A stretch of 38,229 bases of DNA, taken from NCBI GenBank assembly GCA_021414115.1, contig JAIOPD010000129.1, forward strand, positions 1-38,229, given 5' to 3'. The notes beneath the pieces were generated by a model. It made no database searches and had not been told where the DNA came from. It worked only from the letters and a program-made list of their open reading frames with translations. Within the stretch, counting starts at the first letter, position 1, and each line of letters begins with the position of its first letter. This DNA comes from Planctomycetia bacterium. Lineage in GTDB: Bacteria > Planctomycetota > Planctomycetia > Pirellulales > UBA1268. Shown here one piece after another: positions 4,022-38,229 of the stretch. A program made the position numbers and the translations under genes.

Positions 4022-6886
4022 ATGGCCGGCGATCCACCCCGAGGCCTGACGATGAACGCAGCGAGCGGTACGAGGGCCGGAGCACCGCAGGCCCACGCTC
4101 TCACGCCCGTGCCCTGGCATGCCGTCGATCTCGACGGCGTCATCGCCCGTCTCGAGGCCGACCCAGTACGCGGGCTAGCGACGGCCGAGGCTGTCCGCCG
4201 ACTCGCCGCCCATGGCGCCAACGCGCTCGACGAGCCGCCGCCGCGGCCCTGGTGGCGGAACTTCCTCCGCCAGTTTGAGGAGCTCGTGATCTGGATCCTG
4301 GTGGTGGCTGCCGCGATCGCCGGTGTCATGGGAGACTGGGCCGACGCGGCGGCGATCGTGGCGATCGTGCTCGTCAACGCCATCATCGGCTTCCTCCAGG
4401 AGGAACGCGCGCAGCAGGCGTTGGCCGCGCTGCAGCGCATGGCGGCCCCGACGGCGCGGGTGGTGCGCGACGGTACACGGGCGTCGATTCCTGCGCGGGA
4501 GGTCGTGCCGGGCGATCTGATCGATCTCGAGGCGGGCGATCAGGTGCCGGCCGATGCCCGGCTGCTTCAGGCCTTCGGGCTCTTCGTTCAGGAATCATCG
4601 CTCACCGGCGAGAGCATGCCGGTCGATAAGTCGCCGGCGAAGACGCTGCCCGCCGCCACCCCGCTCGGTGATCGGCTCTCGCTCGTGCATGCGGGGACCG
4701 TGGTCGCCGCGGGCAGCGGGTCGGCCGTCGTCGTGGCCACCGGCATGGCGACCGAAATCGGCCGGATCGCCGGCATGCTGGAGCGGTCTCCGCCGGAGTC
4801 GACGCCGCTTCAGCGGAGACTCGCGGGACTCGGCCGAATCCTGGTTGCCGTCTGCCTCGCCGTGGTCGGCATGATCTTCCTGCTGGAACTGTCCCGCGGC
4901 GGCGGCCTCGGCGAACTCTGGAGGACTGGCAGGCTCGGAGAGGTGCTTCTGCGGGCGGTGAGCCTTGCCGTGGCCGCGGTGCCCGAGGGCCTGCCGGCGG
5001 TTGTCACGCTCGTGCTCGCCCTCGGCCTGCAGCGGATGGTGGCCAGAAACGCGCTGGTGCGCCGCCTGCCGAGCGTGGAGACGCTCGGCTCGGTGACGGT
5101 GATCTGTTCCGACAAGACCGGCACCCTCACCCGCAACGAGATGACCGTCCGCGACATCATCACCGCGGGCCACCACTACCGCGTGACGGGCGTGGGCTAC
5201 GAGCCCCGGGGCGAGTTTCATCCGCATGCTCCGGGTGACGGCCAGACCGTGGGGCCGGCCGCCGAGCCCGATCTCCGCACGTTGCTCTGGATCGCGGCCC
5301 GCTGCACTACCGCCACTTTGCTGCCCGGAGCCGATGGCGCCGGCTGGCAGGTGATCGGTGATCCGACGGAGGGGGCGCTGGTCGTGGCGGCGGTGAAGGG
5401 GGGCGTGGCCGCGAGTGATCCGGCCGAGCCGACGATCTTCGAGATCCCCTTCGACTCCACGAGGAAGCGGATGAGCGTGGTCGTGCGGCTCGATGCGAAG
5501 CGCCGCATGCTGGCCACGAAGGGGGCTCCGGAGGCGGTGCTCGCGGACTGCGTCGCCGAGCAGCGGGACGGCCGCGTCGTGCCGCTCAACGACGAACGCC
5601 GCCTTGAAATCCTGGCGGCAGCGGCCGGTCTCGCCGAGCAGGCATTGCGGGTGCTGTCGCTGGCGTGGCGGGACGTGCCGGCGGAGGAGCCGCTTGACGA
5701 CGACGCGAGCCACATCGAACGTGGTCTCGTGTCCGTGGGCCTCGTCGGCATGATCGACCCGCCCCGCGACGAGGCCGGGGCTGCCGTGCAGCGCTGCCGG
5801 TCGGCCGGCATCCGCCCCGTGATGATCACTGGCGACCACCCGGCGACGGCGCTCGCCGTGGGCCGCGAACTCGGGCTCGTCGGCCCGGGCACCGACCGCG
5901 TCGTCACCGGCATGCAACTCGACGCCCTGGACGACTCGGCCATCACGGCCGTGGCTGCCGAGACGTCCGTCTACGCCCGGGTATCCGCCGAGCACAAACT
6001 CCGCATCGTGCGGGCCCTGCAGCGTCTCGGCGAGGTGGTGGCGATGACGGGCGACGGGGTCAACGACGCCCCGGCCGTGAAGGCTGCCGACATCGGGATC
6101 GCGATGGGGATCACCGGCACCGACGTCACCCGGGAGGCGGCCGACATGGTGCTCACCGACGACAACTTCGCCTCGATCGTCAGCGCGGTGGAGGAGGGGC
6201 GGGGCATCTACGACAACATCCAGAAGTTCATGCACTACCTGCTCGCGTGCAACGCGGGGGAGGTGCTCGTGATGTTCGTCGCCGCCGTGGCCGGATGGCC
6301 CGCACCGTTGGCTGCGATCCAGATCCTGTGGCTCAACCTCGTGACCGACGGCCTGCCGGCACTCGCGCTGGGGCTCGAGCCGCCGGAGCCGGACATCATG
6401 ACGCGACCGCCACGGCCGCCGCGGGAGCCGGTGATCCCGTGGATTCGCGGCGTCCAGATCGTCGCTCACGGAGTGATCGTGGCCGCGGTGGCGATCACCG
6501 CGTTTTGGATCACCTGGCAGGGGGACGAGGCCCGGCTGCCGGCGGCCCGCACCGTGACCTTTTGTGTCGCCGCGTTCAGCCAGCTCTTTTTTGCCATCGG
6601 CTGCCGCAGCGACCGCTCGACCGCGTTTCAGCTGGGCTTTTTCGGCAACCCGGCCCTGCTTCTGGCTGTGGTCCTCTCGGGGTTGCTCCAGTTCAGCGTC
6701 GTGATGCTGCCACCGGCGCAGCCATTGTTCGAGATCGACTCGACGCTCGGCAGCGAGTGGGGGCTCGTGCTCGGGCTGGCGCTCGTGCCGGTCACCGTCA
6801 TCGAACTGGTGAAATGCCTGTTTCCGTCGCGATGCCGCCCGGATCAGACCGTCAACCGGATCAGACCTTGTAGCCGTTGCGGCTGA
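4022..6886 (+). CDS. P-type Ca2+-transporting ATPase (type IIA-like)
   Basis: A 954-aa ATP-driven cation pump of the inner membrane. In order: cation_ATPase N-terminal domain (WHAVDLDGVIARLEADPVRG), actuator domain with SLTGES, phosphorylation site DKTGTLT (Asp364), nucleotide-binding domain with KGAPE, hinge MTGDGVNDAPAVKAADIGIA, and about ten membrane helices. The ion-site residues of SERCA pumps are present: PEGLP in M4, NAGE in M5 (SERCA Asn768/Glu771) and NLVTDG in M6 (Asn796/Thr799/Asp800). This favours Ca2+ over Mg2+ or K+. The ATG at 4022 has AGGAG only 4 bases upstream. The ATG at 4052 has GAGG at 7 bases and may be the real start. The 3' end overlaps the convergent oxidoreductase by 26 bases. 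Confidence 0.93.
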   Translation: MAGDPPRGLTMNAASGTRAGAPQAHALTPVPWHAVDLDGVIARLEADPVRGLATAEAVRRLAAHGANALDEPPPRPWWRNFLRQFEELVIWILVVAAAIAGVMGDWADAAAIVAIVLVNAIIGFLQEERAQQALAALQRMAAPTARVVRDGTRASIPAREVVPGDLIDLEAGDQVPADARLLQAFGLFVQESSLTGESMPVDKSPAKTLPAATPLGDRLSLVHAGTVVAAGSGSAVVVATGMATEIGRIAGMLERSPPESTPLQRRLAGLGRILVAVCLAVVGMIFLLELSRGGGLGELWRTGRLGEVLLRAVSLAVAAVPEGLPAVVTLVLALGLQRMVARNALVRRLPSVETLGSVTVICSDKTGTLTRNEMTVRDIITAGHHYRVTGVGYEPRGEFHPHAPGDGQTVGPAAEPDLRTLLWIAARCTTATLLPGADGAGWQVIGDPTEGALVVAAVKGGVAASDPAEPTIFEIPFDSTRKRMSVVVRLDAKRRMLATKGAPEAVLADCVAEQRDGRVVPLNDERRLEILAAAAGLAEQALRVLSLAWRDVPAEEPLDDDASHIERGLVSVGLVGMIDPPRDEAGAAVQRCRSAGIRPVMITGDHPATALAVGRELGLVGPGTDRVVTGMQLDALDDSAITAVAAETSVYARVSAEHKLRIVRALQRLGEVVAMTGDGVNDAPAVKAADIGIAMGITGTDVTREAADMVLTDDNFASIVSAVEEGRGIYDNIQKFMHYLLACNAGEVLVMFVAAVAGWPAPLAAIQILWLNLVTDGLPALALGLEPPEPDIMTRPPRPPREPVIPWIRGVQIVAHGVIVAAVAITAFWITWQGDEARLPAARTVTFCVAAFSQLFFAIGCRSDRSTAFQLGFFGNPALLLAVVLSGLLQFSVVMLPPAQPLFEIDSTLGSEWGLVLGLALVPVTVIELVKCLFPSRCRPDQTVNRIRPCSRCG

Positions 6887-8546
6887 CGTCGGGCTTCACG
6901 CCTTCGGGTGTCTCGTCGCTGGAGATGTCGAACCACTCGGGTTTGAAGTCGATCCGGGCCTGCGACGTCGGGTTGGCCAGCGCGATGTTGCTCACGAGAG
7001 CGATCACCGCGTCGGCGATCGCCACCTCCGGCTTGCACCGCGGCTGGTTTTCGGGCGACGGGTTGCGGATGCACCACGCCCAGTGCTCCATCTCCTCGGT
7101 GTAGCCCCGGGACGGGGCCGCGTCGGCGGCACCGGCCTTGCCGCCTGCCGCGGAGCCACCGCCACCACCGCTCTCCGTGGTGTCGAGCGTGGGGGAGCCG
7201 TCCTTCGCCTTGGCGACGGTCACGCGGGTGTCTTTCGACGAGTCTTTATAGAGCATCACGTCGCGCTCCTGCTCGAGCACGAGCGTGCCCTTCGTGCCGA
7301 GCACCACTTCGCCGTAGCCGCCGAAGCCGTTGCCGTTGATGGAGGAGTAGGTGACGACGATTTTCTTGTTCTTGTCATCCTCGTATCCCGGCGCGGGATA
7401 CTCGTACATGCAGTAGACGTGGTCGTCGATCTCGCGGTCGGCCGGAAAGATGCTCCGGTTGCCGACGGCGGTGACCGTCAGCGGCTTCACCTTCTTGCCC
7501 GCGCCGTGCATCGCCGACACGAAGATGCCGGCGGCGTCGAGCTGGTGGCTGCCGAGCTCGGCCATCAGGCCGCCGCCCGTGCGGTTCCAGAGCCGCCAGC
7601 GGATGAGTTCCTGCAGCGGCGGGCGGTCCGATCCGTCGGGGAGCGACATCTGCGTGTAGCCATACTTCGCGGCATCGAGCAGGGAATCAGAGATCTGGGC
7701 CTCGAGCTGGGCGATCTTCTTCTGGAGCGAGTCGATGTCGGACGGTTTCGCGTTTTCGAGATCCTTTTTCCAGCCGGCGAGCTGCTTGGCGAGCGACGCG
7801 TCGTCGGGCATCGGCGGCTTCCAGGAATCCTTGCCGGGCAGGTTGCCGCGATGCCACTGGGCGCGGATCGAGTGCAGGTCGCCGATGAGCTTCGCCGTAC
7901 CGATCGTATGCACGGCGTTGTCGTAGAGCATGCTGTAGTGCCGCTGGTGGCCGGTCGCGAGGATCTTGCCGGTCTCCTGGGAAACCCGCCCCATCTCTTT
8001 GCACTCGTGCACGCTGTGGCCCATGAGTTTCTCGGTGAGCACGTGCTTGCCGGCTCGCATCGCCTTGATCGATGCCTCGGCATGAAGGTGAAGCGGCAGC
8101 GCGATGATCACGGCCTCGACGTTCGGGTCGGCGAGCAGATCTTCGTAGGCCGAGTAGATCTTCACCTTTTCGCGGGCGGCATCCTCCGTGGACCACTTGT
8201 ACTTCGCCATCAGCCCGGGGCGGGCCTGATAGGCGGTCGGGCTCGAGACGTCGCCGTGGAAGGCACGGAACACGTTGTAGGGGCGGATGTCGGCGATCGC
8301 GACAACGTTGAGGTAGTTGGGATTATGGGCCCCGAGGAGCACGCTCCCCTCGTCGCCGGTGCCCAGCACGCCGACGCGGAGCGGGTCGCCCACGCTCTTG
8401 CCGTAGCCGAAGTAGATCGAGCCCAGCCCGGCCCCGCTGGCGAGCCCCGCCGCCACCGTGCCGGTGAGGAAATCACGCCGCGTGATGGCGACGACGTCGT
8501 TGAAGTTTTCCTTGCCGATCGTCTTCTGCTGTTCGGTCAGGTTCAT
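6861..8546 (-). CDS. TAT-exported Gfo/Idh/MocA family oxidoreductase
   Basis: A 561-aa NAD(P)-dependent sugar or inositol-type dehydrogenase. The N-terminus has a twin-arginine motif TRRDFL (residues 22-27) and a hydrophobic Ala/Gly stretch, so it should be exported folded with its cofactor. The Rossmann glycine motif GVLGTGDEG is at about 59-67 and the family's EK pair at 172-173. The C-terminal Gfo/Idh domain follows. Two features are odd for the family. One is a helical, probably coiled-coil insertion at about 249-290 (LAGWKKDLENAKPSDIDSL and onward). The other is a Gly/Ala-rich linker (ESGGGGGSAAGGKAG) shortly before the conserved EEMEHWAWCIRN. The DoxX-like gene lies 32 bases upstream on the same strand, suggesting an operon. 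The substrate is unknown. Confidence 0.9.
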   Translation of the reverse strand: MNLTEQQKTIGKENFNDVVAITRRDFLTGTVAAGLASGAGLGSIYFGYGKSVGDPLRVGVLGTGDEGSVLLGAHNPNYLNVVAIADIRPYNVFRAFHGDVSSPTAYQARPGLMAKYKWSTEDAAREKVKIYSAYEDLLADPNVEAVIIALPLHLHAEASIKAMRAGKHVLTEKLMGHSVHECKEMGRVSQETGKILATGHQRHYSMLYDNAVHTIGTAKLIGDLHSIRAQWHRGNLPGKDSWKPPMPDDASLAKQLAGWKKDLENAKPSDIDSLQKKIAQLEAQISDSLLDAAKYGYTQMSLPDGSDRPPLQELIRWRLWNRTGGGLMAELGSHQLDAAGIFVSAMHGAGKKVKPLTVTAVGNRSIFPADREIDDHVYCMYEYPAPGYEDDKNKKIVVTYSSINGNGFGGYGEVVLGTKGTLVLEQERDVMLYKDSSKDTRVTVAKAKDGSPTLDTTESGGGGGSAAGGKAGAADAAPSRGYTEEMEHWAWCIRNPSPENQPRCKPEVAIADAVIALVSNIALANPTSQARIDFKPEWFDISSDETPEGVKPDVSRNGYKV

Positions 8547-8578: not shown

Positions 8579-9520
8579 TCAGGAGGGGGTGCAGCAGGAC
8601 GGCTGTGAGGTCCCGCAGCACGAGGACAGCGGGCACCATTTTTTCAGAAAATAGTCGAGTCCGGTCCAGCCGCCGGTAGGCAGGGAGGCGATGACGAGCA
8701 ACGCCGCCACTTCCACCCATTGATCGTACGTGGACTGGGCCCCAGCGGCCCAAAAGGGCTGGGTGGCGATCACGCTGAGCAGGAAAAACACGCCCCCCAT
8801 GGCGTTGAACTTGGTGAGCACGCCCAGCACCAGGCAGGCCCCGATCGTGACGAGCGACCAGCTCACGAATCGGTCGGCCCGCCAGAGCTTCGTCGGCTCG
8901 GCGGCTGAGCCCGCGCGGCCGCGGTCGGCATCAGAGGGCAGTTGGGCATCCCACTCGGCCGTCAGCTTGTGGCCAATAGCCGCGGCATCCTTCATCCAGC
9001 TGGCGGCCTGAGCCCCGAGCTCCTTCTTCTTTTTAGCGACGCGTTCCCGTTCGAAGGGGATCTCGGCGGCCTCGGGCTTTCGCTCCATCACGCCCAAGCG
9101 GGCCACCTGGAGACGGTAGTCGGTCAGGTCGTCTTCGAGGCTCTGGGCGTAATCGGCCAGTTCCGCGCGGGCGGTTTCGAGGCTCTTTTCGGCGGCAGCA
9201 CGGGCGTCGGCCGCGAGCGGAACCTTCTTGATTCGGGCTTCGAAGAGTCGCTGCCAGCTGTCGACAACGGTCTGCTGCCAGGCTTTCGAGGCCTCATCCA
9301 CGGAGCGGCCGTCGACGGCCCCGAGCGTGCCCGACCAGTCGCCCGTCTGTGGCAGCGCCGAGCGGTACCAATCGGCGAGGGGCCCCACCGCCGCCTTGCG
9401 GAAGCCTGCGCTCGACCATTCCGGGTCTCGGAGGTGGGCGAAGCCTTCGAGAAAGAAATGCAGGCCGCACACGATCCGGAGGAACGCGAGCGCGGCGATA
9501 GCGATGATGGGAAGTCGCAT
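8579..9520 (-). CDS. DoxX-like membrane protein with large soluble insert
   Basis: A 313-aa protein starting at the ATG at 9520. The first helix (ALAFLRIVCGLHFFLEGFAHL) carries the DoxX-family look, including the conserved glycine/histidine and FxxG. Three more helices lie near the C-terminus (about residues 205-300). Between them is a soluble, charged, helical region of about 170 residues, apparently outside the membrane. The protein ends in a cysteine cluster, CCGTSQPSCCTPS. DoxX/DoxD proteins are small membrane subunits associated with thiosulfate:quinone oxidoreductase or redox chemistry, but many are uncharacterised. It is the first gene of a likely two-gene operon with the exported Gfo/Idh oxidoreductase. 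The frame is open far upstream, but a membrane helix starts right at this ATG. Confidence 0.75.
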   Translation of the reverse strand: MRLPIIAIAALAFLRIVCGLHFFLEGFAHLRDPEWSSAGFRKAAVGPLADWYRSALPQTGDWSGTLGAVDGRSVDEASKAWQQTVVDSWQRLFEARIKKVPLAADARAAAEKSLETARAELADYAQSLEDDLTDYRLQVARLGVMERKPEAAEIPFERERVAKKKKELGAQAASWMKDAAAIGHKLTAEWDAQLPSDADRGRAGSAAEPTKLWRADRFVSWSLVTIGACLVLGVLTKFNAMGGVFFLLSVIATQPFWAAGAQSTYDQWVEVAALLVIASLPTGGWTGLDYFLKKWCPLSSCCGTSQPSCCTPS

Positions 9521-9691
9521 GGGGTTCCGAGCGAGGTTGGTCGGCGACGGAGGAACTGGCCCGCGACCGAAATCCATCACCCTATTGAACCCGGAAATGC
9601 AGCGGCGACAAGCCCATGAAACACGGAACCGGCCGAAAGGGCCTCCGGAAAAGGCTTGCCAGATTGGCTCTCCCCCTGCGAAAACGCCGGG

Positions 9692-10669
9692 ATGCGAATC
9701 GTTCTCTGCTATCCCGTGGAGCCCAAACACGTCGCCCAGATCCAGGCGGTGGTCCCCGAGGCCACGCTCGTCGATGCCGGCCAGGAGCGGGTGGCTGATG
9801 AACTCCCGTCGGCCGACCTTTTTTGCGGCCACCCCAAGGTGCCTGTTCCGTGGGACAGGGTCGTGGCCGAGGGGCGGCTGAAATGGATTCAGTCGTCCGC
9901 GGCCGGCCTCGACCACTGCCTCGTGCCAGCGGTGGTCGGTTCCGAGATCATCGTCACGAGCGCGTCGGGCGTGCTGGCCGACCAGGTCGCCGAGCAGACC
10001 GTCGGCATGGCCGTGGCCTGCACGAGACGGTTTCCGTTGTTTCTCGAACAGCAGCACCGCCGCGAGTTTGTCCGCCGCCCGACCGTCGATCTCACCGGAG
10101 CCACGGTCGGAATCGTGGGGATGGGAGGCAATGGCCGTCGGCTGGTCGAGGTGCTCGAGCCCTTTCGCGTGAGGATTCTCGCGACTGACTGGTTTCCCGT
10201 GCGGAAGCCGGCGGCCGTCGAGTTTCTCGGCAGCCCCGACACGCTTTCCGATCTACTGCCCGAGATCGACGTGCTCTTTCTCTGCGCCCCCCTCACCGAA
10301 CACACCCGCTCCATGATCGACGCCACGGCCATCGCCCGGATGAAGAAGGGAGCGATTCTTGTCAACGTCGCCCGCGGGCCGCTGGTCGACGAGGACGCCC
10401 TGGTCGATGCGCTGGAGAGCGGTCACCTCGACTCGGCGGCCCTCGACGTCACCCCCGACGAACCGCCCCGGCCCGAGAGCCGGCTCTGGACGGCGCCGCG
10501 ACTCCTGATCACGCCCCACGTGGGCGGACAGTCAAAACACCGAATCGATGCGATGACCGATTTTTTCTGCGACAATCTCTCGAGGTATCGGCAGGGCCGG
10601 CCCCTCCGGAATCTCGTCGATAAACGACTTGGCTTTCCGGAGCCGCCCGACGAGGGGAGTGGACGATGA
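9692..10669 (+). CDS. D-2-hydroxyacid dehydrogenase, NAD-dependent
   Basis: A 325-aa cytoplasmic oxidoreductase of the D-isomer-specific 2-hydroxyacid dehydrogenase family. The cofactor domain has GIVGMGGNG (a GxGxxG variant). The three catalytic residues are recognisable: Arg in VNVARGPLVDEDAL, Glu in DVTPDEPP, and His in ITPHVGGQS. The length is typical. The start at 9692 (MRIVLCYPVEP) matches where the family begins; an in-frame ATG at 9656 adds 12 residues. The stop overlaps the start of the kinase gene (ATGA at 10666-10669), so the two are probably translationally coupled. The substrate cannot be told from sequence; glyoxylate/hydroxypyruvate-like or phosphoglycerate-like 2-keto acids are possible. 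Confidence 0.88.
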   Translation: MRIVLCYPVEPKHVAQIQAVVPEATLVDAGQERVADELPSADLFCGHPKVPVPWDRVVAEGRLKWIQSSAAGLDHCLVPAVVGSEIIVTSASGVLADQVAEQTVGMAVACTRRFPLFLEQQHRREFVRRPTVDLTGATVGIVGMGGNGRRLVEVLEPFRVRILATDWFPVRKPAAVEFLGSPDTLSDLLPEIDVLFLCAPLTEHTRSMIDATAIARMKKGAILVNVARGPLVDEDALVDALESGHLDSAALDVTPDEPPRPESRLWTAPRLLITPHVGGQSKHRIDAMTDFFCDNLSRYRQGRPLRNLVDKRLGFPEPPDEGSGR

Positions 10670-11769
10670 GCACGACCATCATGCACGAGGAGCGGCCCAC
10701 GATCACGGCCGCGGGGGATGTCGGGGGGCAATGCCCTGAGGAACTCCTCGCCCGCTACGCCGAGATCCTCAGTGCGGGCCGTCTCAACTGGACCGAATAC
10801 CACACGCTCTCGCGGCGGCTCGGGGCGGGCGGGCAGGGGGTGGTCTATCTCACCACCCGGCGCGGCACCGACAACTTCACGCTACCCGTCGCGCTCAAGA
10901 TCTTCTCGCCCGAGCGGTATGCGTCGGAGCAGTTGTATGTGGAGGCAATGAACCGCATCGCGGCGGTCGCGGCCCGGGTGGCCCAGATCCAGCAGGACAA
11001 CCTGCTCGACGTCCACAACTTCGTCGAGCAGCGCATGGTCCGGATCATGGAGATGGAGTGGATCGACGGCTATGACCTCTCGAGGCTCCTCGCGCCCGAG
11101 CTCCTCGAGCGTACCAGGGCGAGTGTCGACGAGGATCGCTGGACCTATCTCAACAACGTGATCGTGACGGCAGGCCCCCGGCAATCGCGACTCAAGCCGG
11201 GAGTGGCGATCGCGATCGTGCGGGAATGCCTCGCGGCACTCGCCGCACTTCACCGCGAGGGGATCGTCCACGCCGACATCAAAACCGCCAACATCATGGT
11301 CAAGCGGACCGGCAACGCGAAGATCATCGACATCGGCTCGGGCCATCCCGTCGACGATCCGCCGCCGACCCGGACCTGCACGCCGGCCTACGCCGCACCG
11401 GAGGTGCTCGAGGGCCGCGACAACACGCCGCGTTCCGATCTGGCCAGCCTCGGCTACGTGCTCATCGAGATGCTTTCAGGGCAGCCGCTGTTCTCGGGCC
11501 TGCAGTCGTTCGGCGATCTGCTGGAGGCCAAGCGGTCGCTCGTCCACCGGCTGCCGCAGCTGCTGCCGACGGAAGTGACCTGCAACGAGCTGCTCATGGA
11601 CTTCTGCCGCGGACTGATCGCCCAAGATCCCGCCAAACGGTTTCCGAGCGCCGAGGATGCCGACATGAAGAAGGGGGGCGCGGCCAGCTTCCATCGCCAG
11701 CTCATCGTGGGCGGTCTGGCCAGCGAGTACGAAAACGAGATCCGCGCCTGGCTCGAGGAACTCGACTGA
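10666..11769 (+). CDS. Serine/threonine protein kinase, soluble
   Basis: A 367-aa Hanks-type kinase. Visible motifs: glycine loop GAGGQGVVY (53-61), VALKIF with the ATP lysine K78, catalytic loop HADIKTANIM (Asp204, HRD replaced by HAD), metal-binding DIG in place of DFG (222-224) and YAAPEVLEG (APE). All strictly required residues (Lys, Asp, Asn, Asp) are present, so it should be active. The C-terminal 100 residues finish the kinase lobe. There is no membrane helix, PASTA or propeller domain, unlike many planctomycete kinases. The Shine-Dalgarno GAGGGGAG sits 6 bases before the ATG, inside the dehydrogenase gene. The four-base overlap suggests that the dehydrogenase or its pathway is a partner or substrate. 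Confidence 0.9.
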   Translation: MSTTIMHEERPTITAAGDVGGQCPEELLARYAEILSAGRLNWTEYHTLSRRLGAGGQGVVYLTTRRGTDNFTLPVALKIFSPERYASEQLYVEAMNRIAAVAARVAQIQQDNLLDVHNFVEQRMVRIMEMEWIDGYDLSRLLAPELLERTRASVDEDRWTYLNNVIVTAGPRQSRLKPGVAIAIVRECLAALAALHREGIVHADIKTANIMVKRTGNAKIIDIGSGHPVDDPPPTRTCTPAYAAPEVLEGRDNTPRSDLASLGYVLIEMLSGQPLFSGLQSFGDLLEAKRSLVHRLPQLLPTEVTCNELLMDFCRGLIAQDPAKRFPSAEDADMKKGGAASFHRQLIVGGLASEYENEIRAWLEELD

Positions 11770-11930
11770 TTCGCCCACACGCCGGCGGCGGGACGGCATG
11801 AGGTTCCTCTCAGGAGTATTTCGCTCCACCCGCCCTGGAGCTTCCCTCGCTGGCGAGCGAAATCCTCGATGCTCGTCACGCTCACGCGGATCCCGTCGCC
11901 TCCCCGAATCTCAGCCCGGGTGGCCGGCGA

Positions 11931-12794
11931 CTACTTCAGCCGGCGGTAGATCGCACGCACGAGCGCCGTCGTCGCCCGCGGGGCGAGCCGCTTGAGCCGC
12001 CACAGCCAGCGGGCCTGCAGCCCGACGACCACGTAGCGGCGGTTGACGTGGATCGCGCGGAGCACGCGGCGGGCGACGCGGTCGCTCGTCCACCACGTGA
12101 CTGCCATCCGTCGCTCAGCCTCCCGCTTCTCGATCGCAGACGTGAAGTGCCACGAGTCGAGGAGCCCCGAGCGGAAGAAGCCCGGGCAGACGATCGTCAC
12201 CCCCGGACGGCGCCGCGGACATTCGGCTGCGATCGCCTCGGAGAGCGCGACCACGCCCGCTTTGCTCGCCGCATAGGCGGCCATCGACGGTGGGGCGAGA
12301 GTCGCCGCGATCGAGGCGACGTTGACGACGTGCGATCTCCGTCGGGCGGCACGCAGCCACGGCAGGAACGTCTCGCAGCCGAGGGCGGTGCCCACGAGGT
12401 TGGTATCGATGACCCGGCGCCATTGTGACTCGGGGAGCGTGCCCACTTCGCCGGTCGCGCCGACGCCCGCCGCATTGACGAGCAGATCGAGCCCCTGCCA
12501 CTCGCCGCGGAGCCGGTCGTGGACCGCCCGCCATGCCGCCGCGTCGCGGACGTCGAGACCCAGCCGGAGCACATGGTCGGGCGGGGGCGGACCGTCGGCC
12601 TGCCAGCGGTGAATCGCGTCGGGAAGGTCGCAGCAGGCGACGCTCCAGCCGGCATCGACGAGAGCGTCGGCCAAGGCGCGGCCGAGGCCGCTGGCGGCCC
12701 CGGTCACCACCGCCGTGCGGCGTGGGGCGTGGGGGCCCGATGCATCGACGGGGCTGCCTGGCACGGGGCGGACGACAGGCGGCCGGAGCCGCAT
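11931..12794 (-). CDS. Short-chain dehydrogenase/reductase
   Basis: A 287-aa NAD(P)-dependent SDR of the classical type. The cofactor motif is TGAASGLG (about 32-39), then LDVRD, NAAG (about 108-111), VNVASIAA with the catalytic Ser, and YAASK with the Tyr and Lys of the active site. PG after VCP is also present. The C-terminal 40 residues (RRYVVVGLQARWLWRLKRL) are basic and hydrophobic. That resembles the SDR subgroup with a membrane-associating tail, acting on lipids or other hydrophobic substrates. The start lies 30 bases after the tRNA-Asp gene on the same strand. The convergent kinase gene ends 161 bases away. The first 20 residues are Pro-rich, and a later start is possible. Confidence 0.88.
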   Translation of the reverse strand: MRLRPPVVRPVPGSPVDASGPHAPRRTAVVTGAASGLGRALADALVDAGWSVACCDLPDAIHRWQADGPPPPDHVLRLGLDVRDAAAWRAVHDRLRGEWQGLDLLVNAAGVGATGEVGTLPESQWRRVIDTNLVGTALGCETFLPWLRAARRRSHVVNVASIAATLAPPSMAAYAASKAGVVALSEAIAAECPRRRPGVTIVCPGFFRSGLLDSWHFTSAIEKREAERRMAVTWWTSDRVARRVLRAIHVNRRYVVVGLQARWLWRLKRLAPRATTALVRAIYRRLK

Positions 12795-17449: not shown

Positions 17450-17724
17450 ATCGCCGGCCTCCGTCGCGACCGTGCCGGTCGGTGCGGTTAGAGCGACCGT
17501 GCGTCGGAAGCCGGCGGTGCCGAACCTGCACGGCGTGCTTTCTCTCATGCCGCGGCAGCGGCCGCTGATTGCCCCCCGTCGTCATGGTCGAAGGAGAGTG
17601 GGCAGGGATCGACACCTGGGCGGCGGGCGGCCGTCTGAATTGTTGGTCTCCGTCGGGGTGTCGCGCCCCCGTTCTGGCAAGGATTGCCGGGACGTCACCG
17701 TCATCGAATGGATTCGAACCTGCC
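17450..17724. other. Intergenic stretch between divergent sodA and membrane-protein genes
   Basis: The whole sodA to 17725 gap is about 350 bases. Beyond the sodA promoter I see no gene, RNA or repeat. Open frames read through it on both strands because of high GC, but with no domain or ribosome-binding site. Confidence 0.4.
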
Positions 17725-18813
17725 ATGTCCCTGAATGCGAATCAGCGGCGCGACCAGCGTCGCCGCCTGGTCGTCTCCTGGAAGCGGTCCGCCGATCCGG
17801 CGCAGGCCGCCGCCGCTGAATCACCGCGGGTGATGGCGGCCTACGACCCCGAAGCTCATCCGGAGAAGCAGCGGGGGCCGGCCACGCTCCTGCCGACCGG
17901 CATCGGCGGGCTGTCGCTGGCGGTCCTCGCGATCACCCTGCCACTCGTGGCGGCGGTCGCTGCCGGGGCCGGCGAGCACCTGTTCGGCCGGTCACTCTTC
18001 AGCGGCGGCGGCCGGTTTGCCCGCACGCTCGCGGCGGCCGACGCGGTCTTCGATCCGCGGACGGCCTCGTCGCTGCAGGGCTGGCTGGCGCACATGTACC
18101 TCGTGGCTGCTGCCGGCGTGGCGGTCATCGTGCGGCTGATGCGGCGGCACCGCCGCGACGACTACAAGGGGCGGTTTCGCGCGTGGGGGTGGATGGCCGC
18201 GCTGTTCCTGATCGCCGCCTGCTCGTCAATCGTCCCGGTGGGGCGGCTGTTCGGGACGGCGATGTCGGACGCGACGGGAGTCATGCTCGGGCCCGACGGT
18301 ATCGGCTGGTGGATTTCCCTCGCGACGATTGCGTTGACGGCCGTCGCGTTCTGGGCAGTGCTGCCCCTGCACGAGCGGACGGCCACCGCGCTGTGGCTGT
18401 CGGCCGCACTCGTGGCCTGGGCCGGTGCGGCGGCGGCGACGTGGCTGGCCGCGAGTCGCGAACGCGTCGTGGTCGCAGGGCTCGCGGCCTGGTCGTTGGG
18501 CGCGGCCTTCGCCATGATCGCGATGCTCGCGGCGGCCCGGTCGGTGATCCGCGAGGTGCGCGGCCAGTGCGGACGGGTGGCAAAGCCGAAGGTGAAGGCC
18601 GACAAGCCGGAAAAGCAGCGGCAGGCACCCGCTGTTTCTCGGCCCGTGGAGGATGACGAGACCGACGGCTCCTCCTTCGACGCGGACGAGCCGGCAGCGG
18701 ACGAGGGCGAGACAGTTTATGTTGACGGGTCGGAACACGACCATCGACACCTGTCGAAGGCGGAGCGGAAACGGCTCCGTAAACTCGCCCGCATGAACGG
18801 AACCGCTGCATGA
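17725..18813 (+). CDS. Polytopic membrane protein, unknown
   Basis: A 362-aa protein starting at the ATG at 17725 (MSLNANQRRDQRRRLVVSW). A basic cytoplasmic N-terminus is followed by about seven predicted membrane helices (for example GLSLAVLAITLPLVAAVAAG, MYLVAAAGVAVIVRL, WMAALFLIAACSSIV, GLAAWSLGAAFAMIAMLAAA). The C-terminus is long, soluble and highly charged: Lys-rich, then acidic (DETDGSSFDADEPAADEGE), ending KAERKRLRKLARMNG. No family is recognised. The stop codon overlaps the gltX start (ATGA at 18810-18813), indicating translational coupling with glutamyl-tRNA synthetase. The start lacks a strong ribosome-binding site, and a longer N-terminus from 17569 is possible but less likely. 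Confidence 0.75.
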   Translation: MSLNANQRRDQRRRLVVSWKRSADPAQAAAAESPRVMAAYDPEAHPEKQRGPATLLPTGIGGLSLAVLAITLPLVAAVAAGAGEHLFGRSLFSGGGRFARTLAAADAVFDPRTASSLQGWLAHMYLVAAAGVAVIVRLMRRHRRDDYKGRFRAWGWMAALFLIAACSSIVPVGRLFGTAMSDATGVMLGPDGIGWWISLATIALTAVAFWAVLPLHERTATALWLSAALVAWAGAAAATWLAASRERVVVAGLAAWSLGAAFAMIAMLAAARSVIREVRGQCGRVAKPKVKADKPEKQRQAPAVSRPVEDDETDGSSFDADEPAADEGETVYVDGSEHDHRHLSKAERKRLRKLARMNGTAA

Positions 18814-20369
18814 CCGTCCGCACCCGATTCGCACCCAGCCCGACCGGCTACCTGCACATCGGCGGCGTCCGCACCGCGCTTTTCAACTGGCTCTTCGCGC
18901 GGCGGCACGGCGGACAGTTCATCCTCCGAATCGACGACACCGATGCGGAGCGGAACGTCGACGAGGCGCTCGAGCCGATCCTCTCGGGCCTGAAGTGGCT
19001 GGGCATCGATTGGGACGAGGGCCCGGGAGTGGGTGGTCCGCACGCGCCCTACTTCCAGTCGCAGCGGGCCGCTGGGCATCGCGCCGCCGCCGAGCGGCTG
19101 CTCGCCGCGGGCCATGCCTACCGCGACTTCGCCCGACCGGAGGAGCTCGACGAGGAACGCAAGGCCGCCCAGGCCGCCGGCAAACCCTTCCTTTACAGCC
19201 GACGGTTCGCGGCCTTCGACGATGCGGCGGCGGCAAAGTGGGCCGCCGAGGGCAGGCAGAGCGTCGTGCGGCTGAAGATGCCCCGCGAAGGCGCGCTGGT
19301 GATCGACGATGCCGTCCGCGGGCGGGTGGAGTTTGCCTGGGAACGCGAGCAGGATCATGTCATCCAGCGAGCCGACGGGTCGTGCCTGTACCACTTGGCC
19401 AGCGTCGTCGACGACCACGACCTCGCGATCACGCATGTGATCCGGGCCGAGGAACACCTCTCCAACACGCCGCGGCAGGCGTTCATCGCCATGTCGCTGG
19501 GCTATGCTCTGCCCGCCTACGCCCACCTGCCGCTCGTCGCCGAGCCGGGCAGCCGGACGAAGCTCTCGAAGCGGAAACTCGCGCAGTATCTCAAGAACGC
19601 CGACTTCAAGCAGATCTCGGAACACGGCACCAAGATCGCGGAGCGGATCGGTCTGGCCCCCGAGGCCGACACCTTCAATCCCGTGATCGTCGACTTCTAC
19701 CGCGAGGTGGGCTATCTGCCGTGGGCGATCGACAACTACCTCGCGCTCCTCGGCTGGTCCTACGACGACAAGACGGAGTTTTTCTCGCGCGACGAGCTCA
19801 TCCAGCACTTCACGCTGGAGCGGATCAACTCGTCACCGGCGAGCTTCGATCCGAAGAAGCTCTGGGCGGTGCAGGACCACTACATGGGAGAGCGGTCGAC
19901 CGACGAGAAGCTCGCCCTGATGCTGCCTTTCCTCGTGAAGGCGAAGCTCGTGGCCGAGCCGCCGCCGGCTGAGGCCGTGGCGACGGTGCGGCAGGTGATC
20001 GAGGCGTCGGGCGACCGGCTCAAGGTGGCAGGCGACATTCTCGGCTACGCCGATTTCTTTCTCGTGGACGAGCCGCCGATGGACGAGGCCGCCGTGAAGC
20101 AGCGGCTCGCGAAGCCGGGCGTGCGGCCGTTGCTGGAGGCCTTTGCTGCGGAAGTGACGACGGTCGAGCCCTTCGAGACGCCGGCGCTCGAAGCCGCGCT
20201 CAAGCGTGTGGTGGAGGCGGCGGGCGTGAAGACGGGCGATCTCGTCCATGCCGTCCGCGTGGCGGTGACGGGCAAGACCGTGGGCCCGGGCCTCTACGAT
20301 TGCCTGGCGATCCTCGGCCGCGAGCAGTCGCTCGCCCGTCTCGCCCGGGCCCTGCCGCTCTGCGGCTGA
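18810..20369 (+). CDS. gltX: Glutamyl-tRNA synthetase
   Basis: A 519-aa class I aminoacyl-tRNA synthetase that charges tRNA-Glu. It begins with RFAPSPTGYLHIGGVRTALF, which contains the HIGH-type signature as HIGG (His16-Gly19). The second ATP motif is KLSKR at 251-255. The zinc-finger region typical of some GluRS is not obvious. The C-terminal anticodon-binding helices run to the end. The length is at the upper end of the bacterial range. The ATG overlaps the stop of the upstream membrane-protein gene. A discriminating or non-discriminating specificity cannot be decided from sequence alone. An inverted-repeat element starts 32 bases after the stop. Confidence 0.96.
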   Translation: MTVRTRFAPSPTGYLHIGGVRTALFNWLFARRHGGQFILRIDDTDAERNVDEALEPILSGLKWLGIDWDEGPGVGGPHAPYFQSQRAAGHRAAAERLLAAGHAYRDFARPEELDEERKAAQAAGKPFLYSRRFAAFDDAAAAKWAAEGRQSVVRLKMPREGALVIDDAVRGRVEFAWEREQDHVIQRADGSCLYHLASVVDDHDLAITHVIRAEEHLSNTPRQAFIAMSLGYALPAYAHLPLVAEPGSRTKLSKRKLAQYLKNADFKQISEHGTKIAERIGLAPEADTFNPVIVDFYREVGYLPWAIDNYLALLGWSYDDKTEFFSRDELIQHFTLERINSSPASFDPKKLWAVQDHYMGERSTDEKLALMLPFLVKAKLVAEPPPAEAVATVRQVIEASGDRLKVAGDILGYADFFLVDEPPMDEAAVKQRLAKPGVRPLLEAFAAEVTTVEPFETPALEAALKRVVEAAGVKTGDLVHAVRVAVTGKTVGPGLYDCLAILGREQSLARLARALPLCG

Positions 20370-29748: not shown

Positions 29749-29853
29749 CGTGCCGCGGCTCGGGCCGGCGTGTATGATCGGACCATTCGTCCGTGGCCCG
29801 GTGCCTGTCGCGGATGGTTCGTTTTTCGCGGCACGCCCCCGGAACCCCGCCCC

Positions 29854-31098
29854 ATGCCCGCCCCCGATTCGAGGCCGCCCCGCGGCCGACCCCCACGTCC
29901 TGCGTCAGAGATCCGCGGCCGAACTCCGGCCCGAAGCGCCGGCGGCCGGCGGCCCTTTTCCCGCAGCCGGGACGACGGGGACGACCGTCCGCGATTCACC
30001 GCCGCCGACGATGGGCTCGAGCGTCTGCAGAAGGTGTTGGCCGCCGCGGGTCTCGGCAGTCGCCGCTCCTGCGAGGAACTGATCACGACGGGACGCGTCG
30101 AGGTCGATCGCAAGGTGGCGACGACGCTCGGCGTTCGCGTGGATCCGCTCACCCAGGAGATCCGGGTCGACGGCGAGAAACTGCCGAATCCGAAGCGGGT
30201 CGTCTTCATGCTCAACAAGCCGGTCGGGGTCGTTACCACCAACGTCGACCCTGCGGGCAGGCCCCGCGTCGTCGATCTGGTGCCGGGCGACCACAGGCTC
30301 TTCTCGATCGGTCGGCTCGACCGCATGAGCGAAGGCTTGATTCTGCTCACCAATGACGGGGGACTCGCCAACCTGCTCGCGCACCCGCGGTATGGCGTGG
30401 AGAAGAAATACCTCGTGCAGGTCGCCGGTGTGCCCACCGAGGAACTGCTCGACCGACTCCGCCGCGGCATCCGCCTCGCCGAGGGCGAGGTGCACGCGAA
30501 GCGAGTCTCGATCCGATCGCAGCACAAGCAGAGCGCCGTGCTCGAGATGGTGCTCGACGAGGGCAAGAACCGCGAAATCCGCCGGATGCTCGCCAGCCTG
30601 GGCCACAAGGTGCATCAGTTGAAACGGGTGGCCGTCGGCAAGCTGTCGCTGGGCAACATCCTCCCCGGGCAGTGGCGGCAGCTCACATGGAGTGAGATCG
30701 AGTCGCTGCGGCGCGACGCCATCGCGGAGGTCGGTGCCGACGCCGAGCGGGAGCCGGTGCGTCCGCGAGCACCCGAGCGTGGCCGCCGGCCCGGCGGTCC
30801 GCCGCGGCGGTCGGGCGGCCCCGGTCGGCCGGTGGGAGCGGGGCGACCCGTTGGTGCAGGACGACCCGTTGGTGCAGGACGACCGACTGGTGCAGGACGA
30901 CCGACTGGTGCAGGACGACCGACTGGTGCAGGACGACCTGCCGGGCCGGGTGGAAAGCCGCCTTACGGTCGCCCCTCGGGCGAACCCCGCGGCACCGGCC
31001 GTGGCGGCAAGCCGGCCCGGCCCATGCCGGGCAAGCGGAAGCGAGCCGGCAAGGCGTCGTCGTGGCGGTCGAAGCCGGCCGGTGGCGGAAAGGCCTGA
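29854..31098 (+). CDS. RsuA/RluB-family rRNA pseudouridine synthase
   Basis: A 414-aa enzyme that converts a uridine in rRNA to pseudouridine. Residues 1-50 are Arg/Pro-rich and disordered. An S4 RNA-binding domain follows (LQKVLAAAGLGSRRSCEELI), then the catalytic domain with GRLDRMSEGLILLTNDG, in which Asp156 is the catalytic residue, and EGKNREIRRMLASLGH. The C-terminal 100 residues are an RGG-like tail of GRP(V/T)GA repeats encoded by an 18-bp tandem repeat. The family has several 23S/16S targets; RluB is the closest in layout but the exact target is not certain. The start at 29854 has GGAA 9 bases upstream. pyrK begins 2 bases after the stop. Confidence 0.9.
   Translation: MPAPDSRPPRGRPPRPASEIRGRTPARSAGGRRPFSRSRDDGDDRPRFTAADDGLERLQKVLAAAGLGSRRSCEELITTGRVEVDRKVATTLGVRVDPLTQEIRVDGEKLPNPKRVVFMLNKPVGVVTTNVDPAGRPRVVDLVPGDHRLFSIGRLDRMSEGLILLTNDGGLANLLAHPRYGVEKKYLVQVAGVPTEELLDRLRRGIRLAEGEVHAKRVSIRSQHKQSAVLEMVLDEGKNREIRRMLASLGHKVHQLKRVAVGKLSLGNILPGQWRQLTWSEIESLRRDAIAEVGADAEREPVRPRAPERGRRPGGPPRRSGGPGRPVGAGRPVGAGRPVGAGRPTGAGRPTGAGRPTGAGRPAGPGGKPPYGRPSGEPRGTGRGGKPARPMPGKRKRAGKASSWRSKPAGGGKA
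30823..30948 (+). repeat. 18-bp tandem repeat, seven units, within the pseudouridine synthase gene
   Basis: Seven in-frame units of 18 bases, consensus GGACGACC(C/G)(G/A)(T/C)TGGTGCA, encode GRP(V/T/A)GA. Units 4-6 (30877-30930) are identical to one another, and units 2 and 3 differ by one base. The near-identity suggests recent expansion and possible length variation. Changes of whole units keep the frame. Confidence 0.9.
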
Positions 31099-31100
31099 GC

Positions 31101-31979
31101 ATGGCCACCGTCACTCCCGGAACCGTCTGCCATGCCGATGAGGCCCGCCACATGCGGGTCCGGATCGTGGCGCACGATCAGGTCGCGGAAGCGACCTGGC
31201 GGATCAGGATCGACTGCCCGGAGATCGCCGCCCAGGCCGTGCCTGGCCAGTTTGCGATGCTGCGGCTCCCCGACCGCACCGATCCGCTGCTGGCCCGTCC
31301 GTTGGCGGTCTACGACACGTTCAGCGACGGCGTCGGGCCCCGCTACGCCGACTTCATCTATCTCGTGCATGGCAGGTTCACCACGGCGCTGTCGGTGGCC
31401 CGCCCGGGCGACGAACTCACGGCGTGGGGGCCGCTGGGCAACGGCTTTTCACTGCCGCCCGCAGAGCACCTCGTCCTGGTGGCGGGCGGCATCGGTCAGA
31501 CGGCACTCTTCGCTCTTGCCCGTGAGCGACTCGGGAAGGCCCGCTACGGCCTGCCCCATCGCCACGCGGCCGCCGCCCGGCAGGTGACGTTTTGTTGGGG
31601 AGCCCGACATGCGGGCATGTTCGCCGACGTGCGAGACTTTCGCGACGCCGGATGCGACGTGCATCTGGCGACGCTCGACGGCTCGGCGGGCACGAAGGGC
31701 ACGGTCATCGACCTGCTCGACAGGCGGTTCGCCGACGGAATCGATTGCTCCACCACCCATATCGCCTGTTGCGGCCCCGAGCCGATGATGGCCGCGGTAT
31801 CGCGGTGGGCTCATGCCAGACGCGTGCCGTGCGCGGTCTCTCTCGAGACACCCATGGCGTGCGGCATCGGGATCTGCTTCACCTGCGTGGCGCGGATCCG
31901 AGATGCCGATGGAGGCTGGGACTACCGGCGCACCTGCGTCGAGGGGCCGGTCTTCGACGCGCAAAGCGTTGAGTGGTAA
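31101..31979 (+). CDS. pyrK: Dihydroorotate dehydrogenase electron-transfer subunit
   Basis: A 292-aa subunit that passes electrons from dihydroorotate dehydrogenase B to NAD. The FAD site is RPLAVY (66-71), the NAD site is GGIGQTAL (129-136), and the C-terminal [2Fe-2S] centre has four cysteines at about 254, 259, 262 and 279 (MACGIGICFTC and RRTCVEG). The length is slightly above the usual 250-260. The ATG lies 2 bases after the pseudouridine synthase stop, with GGAAAGG upstream inside that gene, so the two are likely cotranscribed. The catalytic partner pyrD is not in the window. It is convergent with rpsT. Confidence 0.9.
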   Translation: MATVTPGTVCHADEARHMRVRIVAHDQVAEATWRIRIDCPEIAAQAVPGQFAMLRLPDRTDPLLARPLAVYDTFSDGVGPRYADFIYLVHGRFTTALSVARPGDELTAWGPLGNGFSLPPAEHLVLVAGGIGQTALFALARERLGKARYGLPHRHAAAARQVTFCWGARHAGMFADVRDFRDAGCDVHLATLDGSAGTKGTVIDLLDRRFADGIDCSTTHIACCGPEPMMAAVSRWAHARRVPCAVSLETPMACGIGICFTCVARIRDADGGWDYRRTCVEGPVFDAQSVEW

Positions 31980-37352: not shown

Positions 37353-38229
37353 TCAGTTTGGGCTGGCGGGGGTCGTGCCCCCCTCGAAGTGACGCCGGAG
37401 GTAGCGGGCCCGCTCGATGTTGCGGTCCTTGGTATCGAGCTCCACGCCGCGGAGTTTCTGGAGGTGGGCCGGCTGGGTGCGGACGAGGAGCGAGTTGATG
37501 TCGGCGATCTTGACGTCGCCGATCAGCCCCAAGAGCACTCCCATGCGGACCCGCGAGAGCAACTGCATCGTTTCCTCGGCCGTGATCGTCTGCGCCGTCC
37601 GGAGAATGCCGTAGGCCCGGCTGACCTGGTCGTGGACGTTCTGCTGCGTCTCGCGCACGAGGAATTCCCGGGCCCGCCGCTCGTAGTCGATGAGCACGGG
37701 CACCACGTCCCCCACCTGCTCCACGAGTTCCTCCTCGGATTTCCCGAGCGTGGTCTGGTTGGAGATTTGGTAGAAGTCGCCCATCGCCTGCGAGCCCTCG
37801 CCATACAACCCGCGGACGGCTAGCGAGATCTTGTGCAGGCTGCGAAACACCTTGTCGATCTGCCGCGTGATCACGAGCGCGGGGAGATGGAGCATCACGC
37901 TCACGCGGATGCCGGTGCCGACGTTGGTGGGGCAGGCCGTGAGGTAGCCGAACCGGGGATGGAACGCGTAGGGCACGACCTTCTCGATCTGGTCGTCCAC
38001 CGCCTTGATCTGCCCCCACACGCCGGCGAGGTCCAGGCCGCTGTGCATGCACTGGATCCGCAGGTGATCCTCCTCGTTGATCATCAGGCTCACCTGCTCG
38101 CGGCCGTCGATCGCCACACCGCGGGCGCCCTGGGCGTCGGCGTGCTCGCGGCTGATCAATTGCCGCTCGACTAGAAACTGCCGGTCCAGCACCGCCAGTT
38201 TGTTGACGTCGAGATACGTCATTTCGCCG
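37353..38229 (-). CDS. mcsB: Protein arginine kinase McsB (5' end outside the window)
   Basis: 289 residues from an internal methionine, plus a few more codons, run to the window edge; about 60-70 N-terminal residues are missing. McsB phosphorylates arginines in proteins and marks them for the ClpCP protease. The ATP:guanidino phosphotransferase fold is clear from INEEDHLRIQCM, RFGYLTACPTNVGTGIRVSV (the catalytic Cys region), SQAMGDFYQISNQTTLG and RMGVLLGLIG. The C-terminal DRNIERARYLR resembles the RDxxRA phosphoarginine-binding element. The frame continues upstream past the ATG at 38222 (preceded by Gly-Glu codons), so that ATG is internal. Its usual partners mcsA and clpC would lie beyond the edge or elsewhere. 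Confidence 0.92.
   Translation of the reverse strand, partial: GEMTYLDVNKLAVLDRQFLVERQLISREHADAQGARGVAIDGREQVSLMINEEDHLRIQCMHSGLDLAGVWGQIKAVDDQIEKVVPYAFHPRFGYLTACPTNVGTGIRVSVMLHLPALVITRQIDKVFRSLHKISLAVRGLYGEGSQAMGDFYQISNQTTLGKSEEELVEQVGDVVPVLIDYERRAREFLVRETQQNVHDQVSRAYGILRTAQTITAEETMQLLSRVRMGVLLGLIGDVKIADINSLLVRTQPAHLQKLRGVELDTKDRNIERARYLRRHFEGGTTPASPN

Follow-up and report, generated by a model that had tools for sequence, protein, structure and literature searches.

A non-RD Ser/Thr kinase homologue and its likely translational coupling to a D-2-hydroxyacid dehydrogenase in Pirellulales

Planctomycetes carry many Ser/Thr kinases, few of which have known targets. The best-known non-RD kinases are the immune receptor kinases of plants and animals. 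According to a survey of planctomycete kinases, proteomes in the Pirellula and Bythopirellula clades each contain about 20 to 60 of them, and neither DFG nor HRD was mentioned when its main text was searched for these terms (PMC11032199). Searches of open-licence literature found no mention of the dehydrogenase–kinase pair described here.

This pair lies in a 38,229-nucleotide stretch of DNA from a member of the order Pirellulales, which is referred to as the window. In our reading, based on sequence comparison, the kinase would be a lineage-specific non-RD Ser/Thr kinase, the translation of which became coupled recently to that of an ordinary dehydrogenase.

Anatomy of the overlapping gene pair

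The dehydrogenase ORF extends on the forward strand from an ATG at 9692 to a TGA ending at 10669, and shares bases 10666–10669 (ATGA) with the kinase, the ATG of which is at 10666. An upstream TTG at 9656 is a possible alternative start of the dehydrogenase; the conserved N-terminus MRIVLCYPVE begins at 9692. Within the dehydrogenase gene, GGAG at 10656–10659 is located 6 nt before the kinase ATG. The first-pass annotation had described a D-2-hydroxyacid dehydrogenase overlapping a Ser/Thr kinase by ATGA, with a Shine-Dalgarno sequence inside the first gene. This was confirmed by the ORFs and Pfam, with the GGAG as the likely Shine-Dalgarno sequence, and the overlap recurs in relatives more than by chance. 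The flanking genes on both sides are all encoded on the opposite strand, so that the dehydrogenase and the kinase stand alone on theirs (Table 1). A promoter and terminator scan of 9500–11950 found no promoter-like site and terminator-like sites that were not clearly above those of shuffled sequences, and a repeat search around the pair returned only short chance-like matches.

Table 1. Features of the dehydrogenase–kinase locus and its neighbours (positions in the window)
Feature	Position	Strand	Evidence
Gfo/Idh/MocA oxidoreductase, Tat-like N-terminus	6861..8546	-	Tat score just under cut-off; neighbour kept
DoxX-like membrane protein, divergent neighbour	8579..9520	-	DoxX 6e-4, below Pfam cut-off; kept beyond family
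D-2-hydroxyacid dehydrogenase, 325 aa	9692..10669	+	Pfam, conserved start, catalytic residues, AF2, structural match 5mh5
Dehydrogenase Arg228	10373..10375	+	35/35 in orthologue alignment
Dehydrogenase Glu257	10460..10462	+	35/35 in orthologue alignment
Dehydrogenase His276	10517..10519	+	35/35 in orthologue alignment
GGAG, likely Shine-Dalgarno sequence of kinase	10656..10659	+	Sequence; seen in 10/17 same-genus overlapping pairs
ATGA stop/start overlap	10666..10669	+	Sequence; same-genus comparison
Soluble Ser/Thr kinase homologue, 367 aa, PknB-like fold	10666..11769	+	Pfam Pkinase, AF2, 5u94 match
Kinase Lys78 (beta-3 lysine)	10897..10899	+	75/75 orthologues
Kinase Val101, alpha-C glutamate position	10966..10968	+	Acid in 0/75 orthologues
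Kinase HAD (HxD motif, non-RD), residues 202–204	11269..11277	+	Sequence and orthologue alignment
Kinase DIG (DxG motif), residues 222–224	11329..11337	+	Sequence and orthologue alignment
SDR oxidoreductase, convergent downstream neighbour	11931..12794	-	Pfam; kept only within family

The four-base overlap is young. It was present in 17 of 21 pairs from the same genus, with the GGAG core visible in only 10 of these 17; in a 22nd same-genus genome (G010), the two genes lie on different contigs. Among sister genera, the overlap was found in 1/15 pairs, the one with a frameshifted dehydrogenase, and it was found in none of the 23 other-family genomes, in which gaps of 95–303 bp separate the linked genes. 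The gap of 327 calculated for locus L216 reflects a dehydrogenase split by the frameshift; under L083, which is the same locus, the value is -4.

The pair thus combines a stop/start overlap, an internal ribosome site, and retention in relatives, as predicted for translationally coupled genes. Coupled expression in this genus, as proposed in the first-pass annotation, is likely and is well supported by the anatomy of the locus (overlap, shared strand, opposite-strand flanks, and recurrence in 17/21 same-genus pairs). In this genus, the dehydrogenase and kinase genes would form a two-gene transcription unit, in which the ATGA overlap and the ribosome site inside the dehydrogenase gene would couple translation of the kinase to that of the dehydrogenase.

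Several further observations concern the window and the related loci. A second ATGA overlap joins a Pfam-less ORF (17569–18813) and a Glu-tRNA-synthetase-like gene (18810–20369), both on the forward strand, and such overlaps are therefore not rare here. The edge of the window encodes an ATP:guanido phosphotransferase catalytic domain (37353–38222, reverse strand), which we take to be possibly a McsB-like protein arginine kinase. The frameshifted dehydrogenase of L083/L216 comes from one MAG, and a second dehydrogenase (G057:C25:20578-21549) contains a TAG inside the aligned range; each may reflect assembly error or decay. Seven loci titled Candidatus Kuenenia stuttgartiensis (L194, L196, L197, L206, L211, L230, and L246) carry a Pirellulales-type locus, and their titles look wrong.

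Folds and conserved residues of the two proteins

The dehydrogenase matched the Pfam families 2-Hacid_dh_C (4.5e-50) and 2-Hacid_dh (9.9e-9), and its AF2 model (pLDDT 92.5) was closest to the haloarchaeal D2-HDH 5mh5 (Z 30.9), with formate dehydrogenases and glyoxylate/hydroxypyruvate reductases matching about equally well. The GxGGxG motif, Arg228, Glu257, and His276 were kept without exception in the alignment of orthologues (n = 35); the catalytic roles of these three residues are presumably those of the dehydrogenase family. The protein therefore has the two-domain fold, NAD-binding glycine motif, and Arg/Glu/His triad of D-2-hydroxyacid dehydrogenases, and looks like an active, catalytically competent enzyme. 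It reached no NCBIfam equivalog cut-off (best 152 bits versus 400). Naming of a substrate was rejected because all equivalogs were below cut-off and the structural matches were tied across many substrate types.

The kinase matched Pfam Pkinase over residues 48–327 (3.1e-35) with 122.3 bits against a curated cut-off of 31.7, in addition to weak matches to APH (23 bits), ABC1, and RIO. Its AF2 model (pLDDT 80.6, pTM 0.84) aligned with PknB (5u94) over 258 residues with Z 27.9 and 25% identity. Both the Pkinase score and the kinase fold place the protein with eukaryotic-type Ser/Thr kinases. The Pfam scan of the kinase showed no PASTA or other sensor domain, consistent with a soluble kinase.

We compared the catalytic motifs in an alignment of 76 rows, from which the fragments L115, L096, and L117 were dropped and which also leaves L066 outside; L116 is a 72-residue fragment, and the motif counts are hence out of 75. 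Lys78, Asp204, Lys206, Asn209, Asp222, and Glu246 were invariant (75/75), so that the beta-3 Lys, the HxD Asp, the Asn, and the DxG Asp were found in every orthologue. With these residues, the kinase looks catalytically competent. The middle residue of HxD was G in 49 orthologues, A in 13, C in 7, S in 5, and R in 1; the Arg of RD kinases is thus absent in 74/75. The DxG motif was mostly DIG (I in 62 orthologues), with L, F, M, or V at the middle position otherwise, and four of the most distant rows had D replacing the glycine. The 4.35-Mb genome has 19 places matching the Pkinase model. In eight of the other places, which served as the same-genome comparison, HRD was found in 8/8 and the third motif was DFG, DLG, or DMG, with DLA in L004. 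The first-pass annotation had listed HAD for HRD and DIG for DFG as unusual. On this alignment, HAD is a real and conserved feature that predicts a conserved non-RD kinase, and DIG was rejected as a special feature because the same genome's other kinases have DLG, DMG, and DFG.

The alpha-C glutamate position corresponded to Val101 in three alignments, i.e., phmmer to PknA, MAFFT, and the profile–profile alignment by hhalign. This column contained V in 61 orthologues, I in 6, Q in 5, T in 2, and L in 1, with no D or E, whereas the alpha-C Glu was found in 8/8 other kinases of the same genome. Acids at residues 93 or 94 were common and missing in 8 rows. By sequence alignment, the kinase lacks the pairing of the alpha-C Glu with the beta-3 Lys, and the predicted absence of this glutamate is a larger departure than the motif changes listed in the first-pass annotation. 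A kinase missing two standard residues yet conserved across the order deserves attention on its own; its activity is assumed here. Having neither the HRD arginine nor the alpha-C glutamate, it would probably be active without activation-loop phosphorylation.

A defence role for the kinase was rejected because the PADLOC matches (mad6 and PD-T4-6) correspond to the kinase domain generally. The Pfam-scanned neighbouring genes included no defence family.

Gene order and history of the pair

Both genes were present in 60/60 relatives searched. Among 80 named loci, the dehydrogenase was directly upstream of the kinase on the same strand in 66 of the 74 that could be scored and not in 8; the remaining 6 had too little upstream sequence. 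Within the family, the pair was linked at every locus with enough sequence. The 23 other-family genomes (G037–G059) included 13 with a linked pair and 9 in which both genes were present but unlinked; in G053, 2.9 kb separates the two genes, and this interval contains an opposite-strand ORF. In the class sample, the pair was linked in 19/27 same-order genomes, as counted from coordinates. Much of the order thus retains the pair, and the refuting condition named in the first-pass annotation, that the pair is not conserved in any relative, fails.

As a gene-order background, four control pairs from the same window, in which a common function is not evident, were counted in the same 23 other-family genomes. 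Pseudouridine synthase and a PyrK-like protein were within 1.9 kb in 22/23, RecA and AlaRS within 2.5 kb in 13/23 (mostly far enough apart to accommodate a gene), a phosphomannose-isomerase-like protein and pseudouridine synthase within about 2.5 kb in 7/23, and the kinase and its downstream SDR in 0/23. RecA and AlaRS are also conserved as neighbours elsewhere among bacteria. Counted by eye from coordinates, with contig breaks lowering all counts, and set against the thin null of four non-random control pairs, the dehydrogenase–kinase linkage (13–14/23) was inside the control range (22, 13, 7, and 0/23). Linkage alone is therefore no argument for shared function, and, in view of the control pairs, conservation of the pair was rejected as proof of phospho-control. 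As a separate observation, the genes for pseudouridine synthase and the PyrK-like iron-sulphur flavin reductase subunit (29770–31979, forward strand), adjacent in 22/23 other-family genomes, keep this adjacency nearly order-wide with no obvious shared function.

The two genes differ in distribution. Kinase orthologues were found in 53 of the 118 class-sample genomes, and dehydrogenase orthologues (at least 49% identity) in 27, all from the same order and all with the kinase (27/27). The other 26 of the 53 kinase-encoding genomes, which belong to other families and include other orders, had no dehydrogenase orthologue, and the neighbours of the kinase differ in the other-family genomes of this kind.

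We examined the history of the kinase in a maximum-likelihood tree of 51 kinases. Genomes with an unlinked pair were placed inside clades that include linked ones: G045 grouped with G058, G040, and G054; G042 with G059; and G331 with G050 and G262 (support 85/89), while G055 adjoined the family of the window, G051, and G053. If linkage is ancestral, this placement indicates that it broke at least four times, and both genes survived every separation. The kinases of G393 (L266) and G431 (L267), from a family outside the order, showed 64% identity and fell within the Pirellulales clade, although this placement is weakly supported (83/85). Neither has a dehydrogenase beside it, and they possibly reflect transfer of the kinase alone. 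Other features of the kinase loci included two orthologues in G439 (L271 and L272), which are apart in the tree; no other duplicate was listed for the class sample. In one other-family lineage (L129, L130, and L131), a conserved gene follows the kinase, which by eye is ECF-sigma-factor-like in L129; a caspase-like ORF, also labelled by eye, is upstream of the kinase orthologue in L129.

Meaning of the pairing and comparison with known proteins

These data suggest that an ordinary D-2-hydroxyacid dehydrogenase, NAD(P)-dependent and similar in type to glyoxylate/hydroxypyruvate reductases, with orthologues confined to Pirellulales in our samples, stands beside an older, broader, single-copy soluble PknB-fold protein that retains the nucleotide, metal, and base residues. 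For the most part, the order-wide pairing would reflect inheritance of gene order, with tightening to an overlap in a single lineage, and the targets of the kinase would most likely be proteins other than, or besides, the dehydrogenase. We consider this combination of a coupled two-gene unit, an ordinary dehydrogenase, a broader non-RD kinase, and a mostly inherited pairing to be the probable one, if with some reserve.

The first-pass annotation had taken coupling to suggest direct phospho-control, which does not follow, given linkage inside the control range (13–14/23), at least four rearrangements that parted the genes with both surviving, and a kinase without the dehydrogenase in 26/118 genomes. 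Such control is possible, and comparative evidence does not favour it. In its explicit form, the kinase would phosphorylate the dehydrogenase and control a glyoxylate/hydroxypyruvate or related step, with coupling setting the ratio of the two proteins. The overlap and same-strand pairing, the linkage in 66/74 scorable named loci and 19/27 same-order class-sample genomes, and the asymmetry by which the dehydrogenase orthologue was found only with the kinase (27/27), being absent wherever the kinase was absent in the class sample, speak for this explanation, and a real functional link may exist, given that more than half of the 23 other-family genomes and 19/27 same-order genomes retain the pair. 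We nevertheless regard it as unlikely because the linkage lies within the range of the control pairs, 26/53 of the genomes with the kinase have no dehydrogenase orthologue, and both genes persist once separated (9/23). A stronger version, in which the kinase family, working with neither the HRD arginine nor the alpha-C glutamate, can dispense with activation-loop phosphorylation and the usual Lys–Glu switch, and in which its dose in Pirellulales is set by translational coupling to the dehydrogenase that it phosphorylates as a one-enzyme module, appears highly doubtful.

The missing alpha-C glutamate also raises the question of whether the kinase homologue is a working protein kinase at all, rather than a pseudokinase, scaffold, or small-molecule kinase. 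An acid in 0/75 orthologues against Glu in 8/8 same-genome kinases and the weak APH, ABC1, and RIO matches would fit such a protein; however, the six catalytic residues from Lys78 to Glu246 are kept in 75/75, and Pkinase scored 122 bits against 23 for APH, which makes this explanation improbable. It is very unlikely that the true partners of the dehydrogenase are the divergent Gfo/Idh/MocA and DoxX-like genes, with the kinase as a passenger: these genes are near the dehydrogenase in 12/23 other-family genomes, including three without the kinase there, but the kinase stays in position at a similar frequency (13–14/23), and five kinase-linked loci (L092, L095, L102, L105, and L107) are without them.

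Conserved throughout the sampled genomes of the order and, in one lineage, with a partner gene fixed beside it, the kinase offers a tractable first candidate for substrate finding. Loss of the alpha-C glutamate in 75/75 orthologues with retention of the catalytic residues provides a test of how dispensable this kinase switch is. The control pairs indicate that, in this group, function is not to be inferred from neighbourhood alone.

Compared with described proteins, the dehydrogenase resembles D2-HDH (5mh5), the glyoxylate/hydroxypyruvate reductases 5aov and 2gcg, and GhrA (6ovl) in fold (Z 29.5–30.9) and shares GxGGxG, Arg228, Glu257, and His276 with them, although it is only about 25% identical to these enzymes and is under every NCBIfam equivalog cut-off. 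The kinase is similar to non-RD kinases in that 74/75 orthologues lack an Arg preceding the catalytic Asp, but unlike the plant and animal immune receptor kinases of this type, it is bacterial and has no recognised sensor domain. With the PknB/PknA-type kinases (5u94 and 4ow8), it shares the fold, the Lys, the HxD Asp, the Asn, and the DxG Asp, whereas it differs from them in having neither the HRD Arg nor the alpha-C Glu and in carrying an extra segment at approximately residues 143–177 and a C-terminal stretch that replaces the sensor domains.
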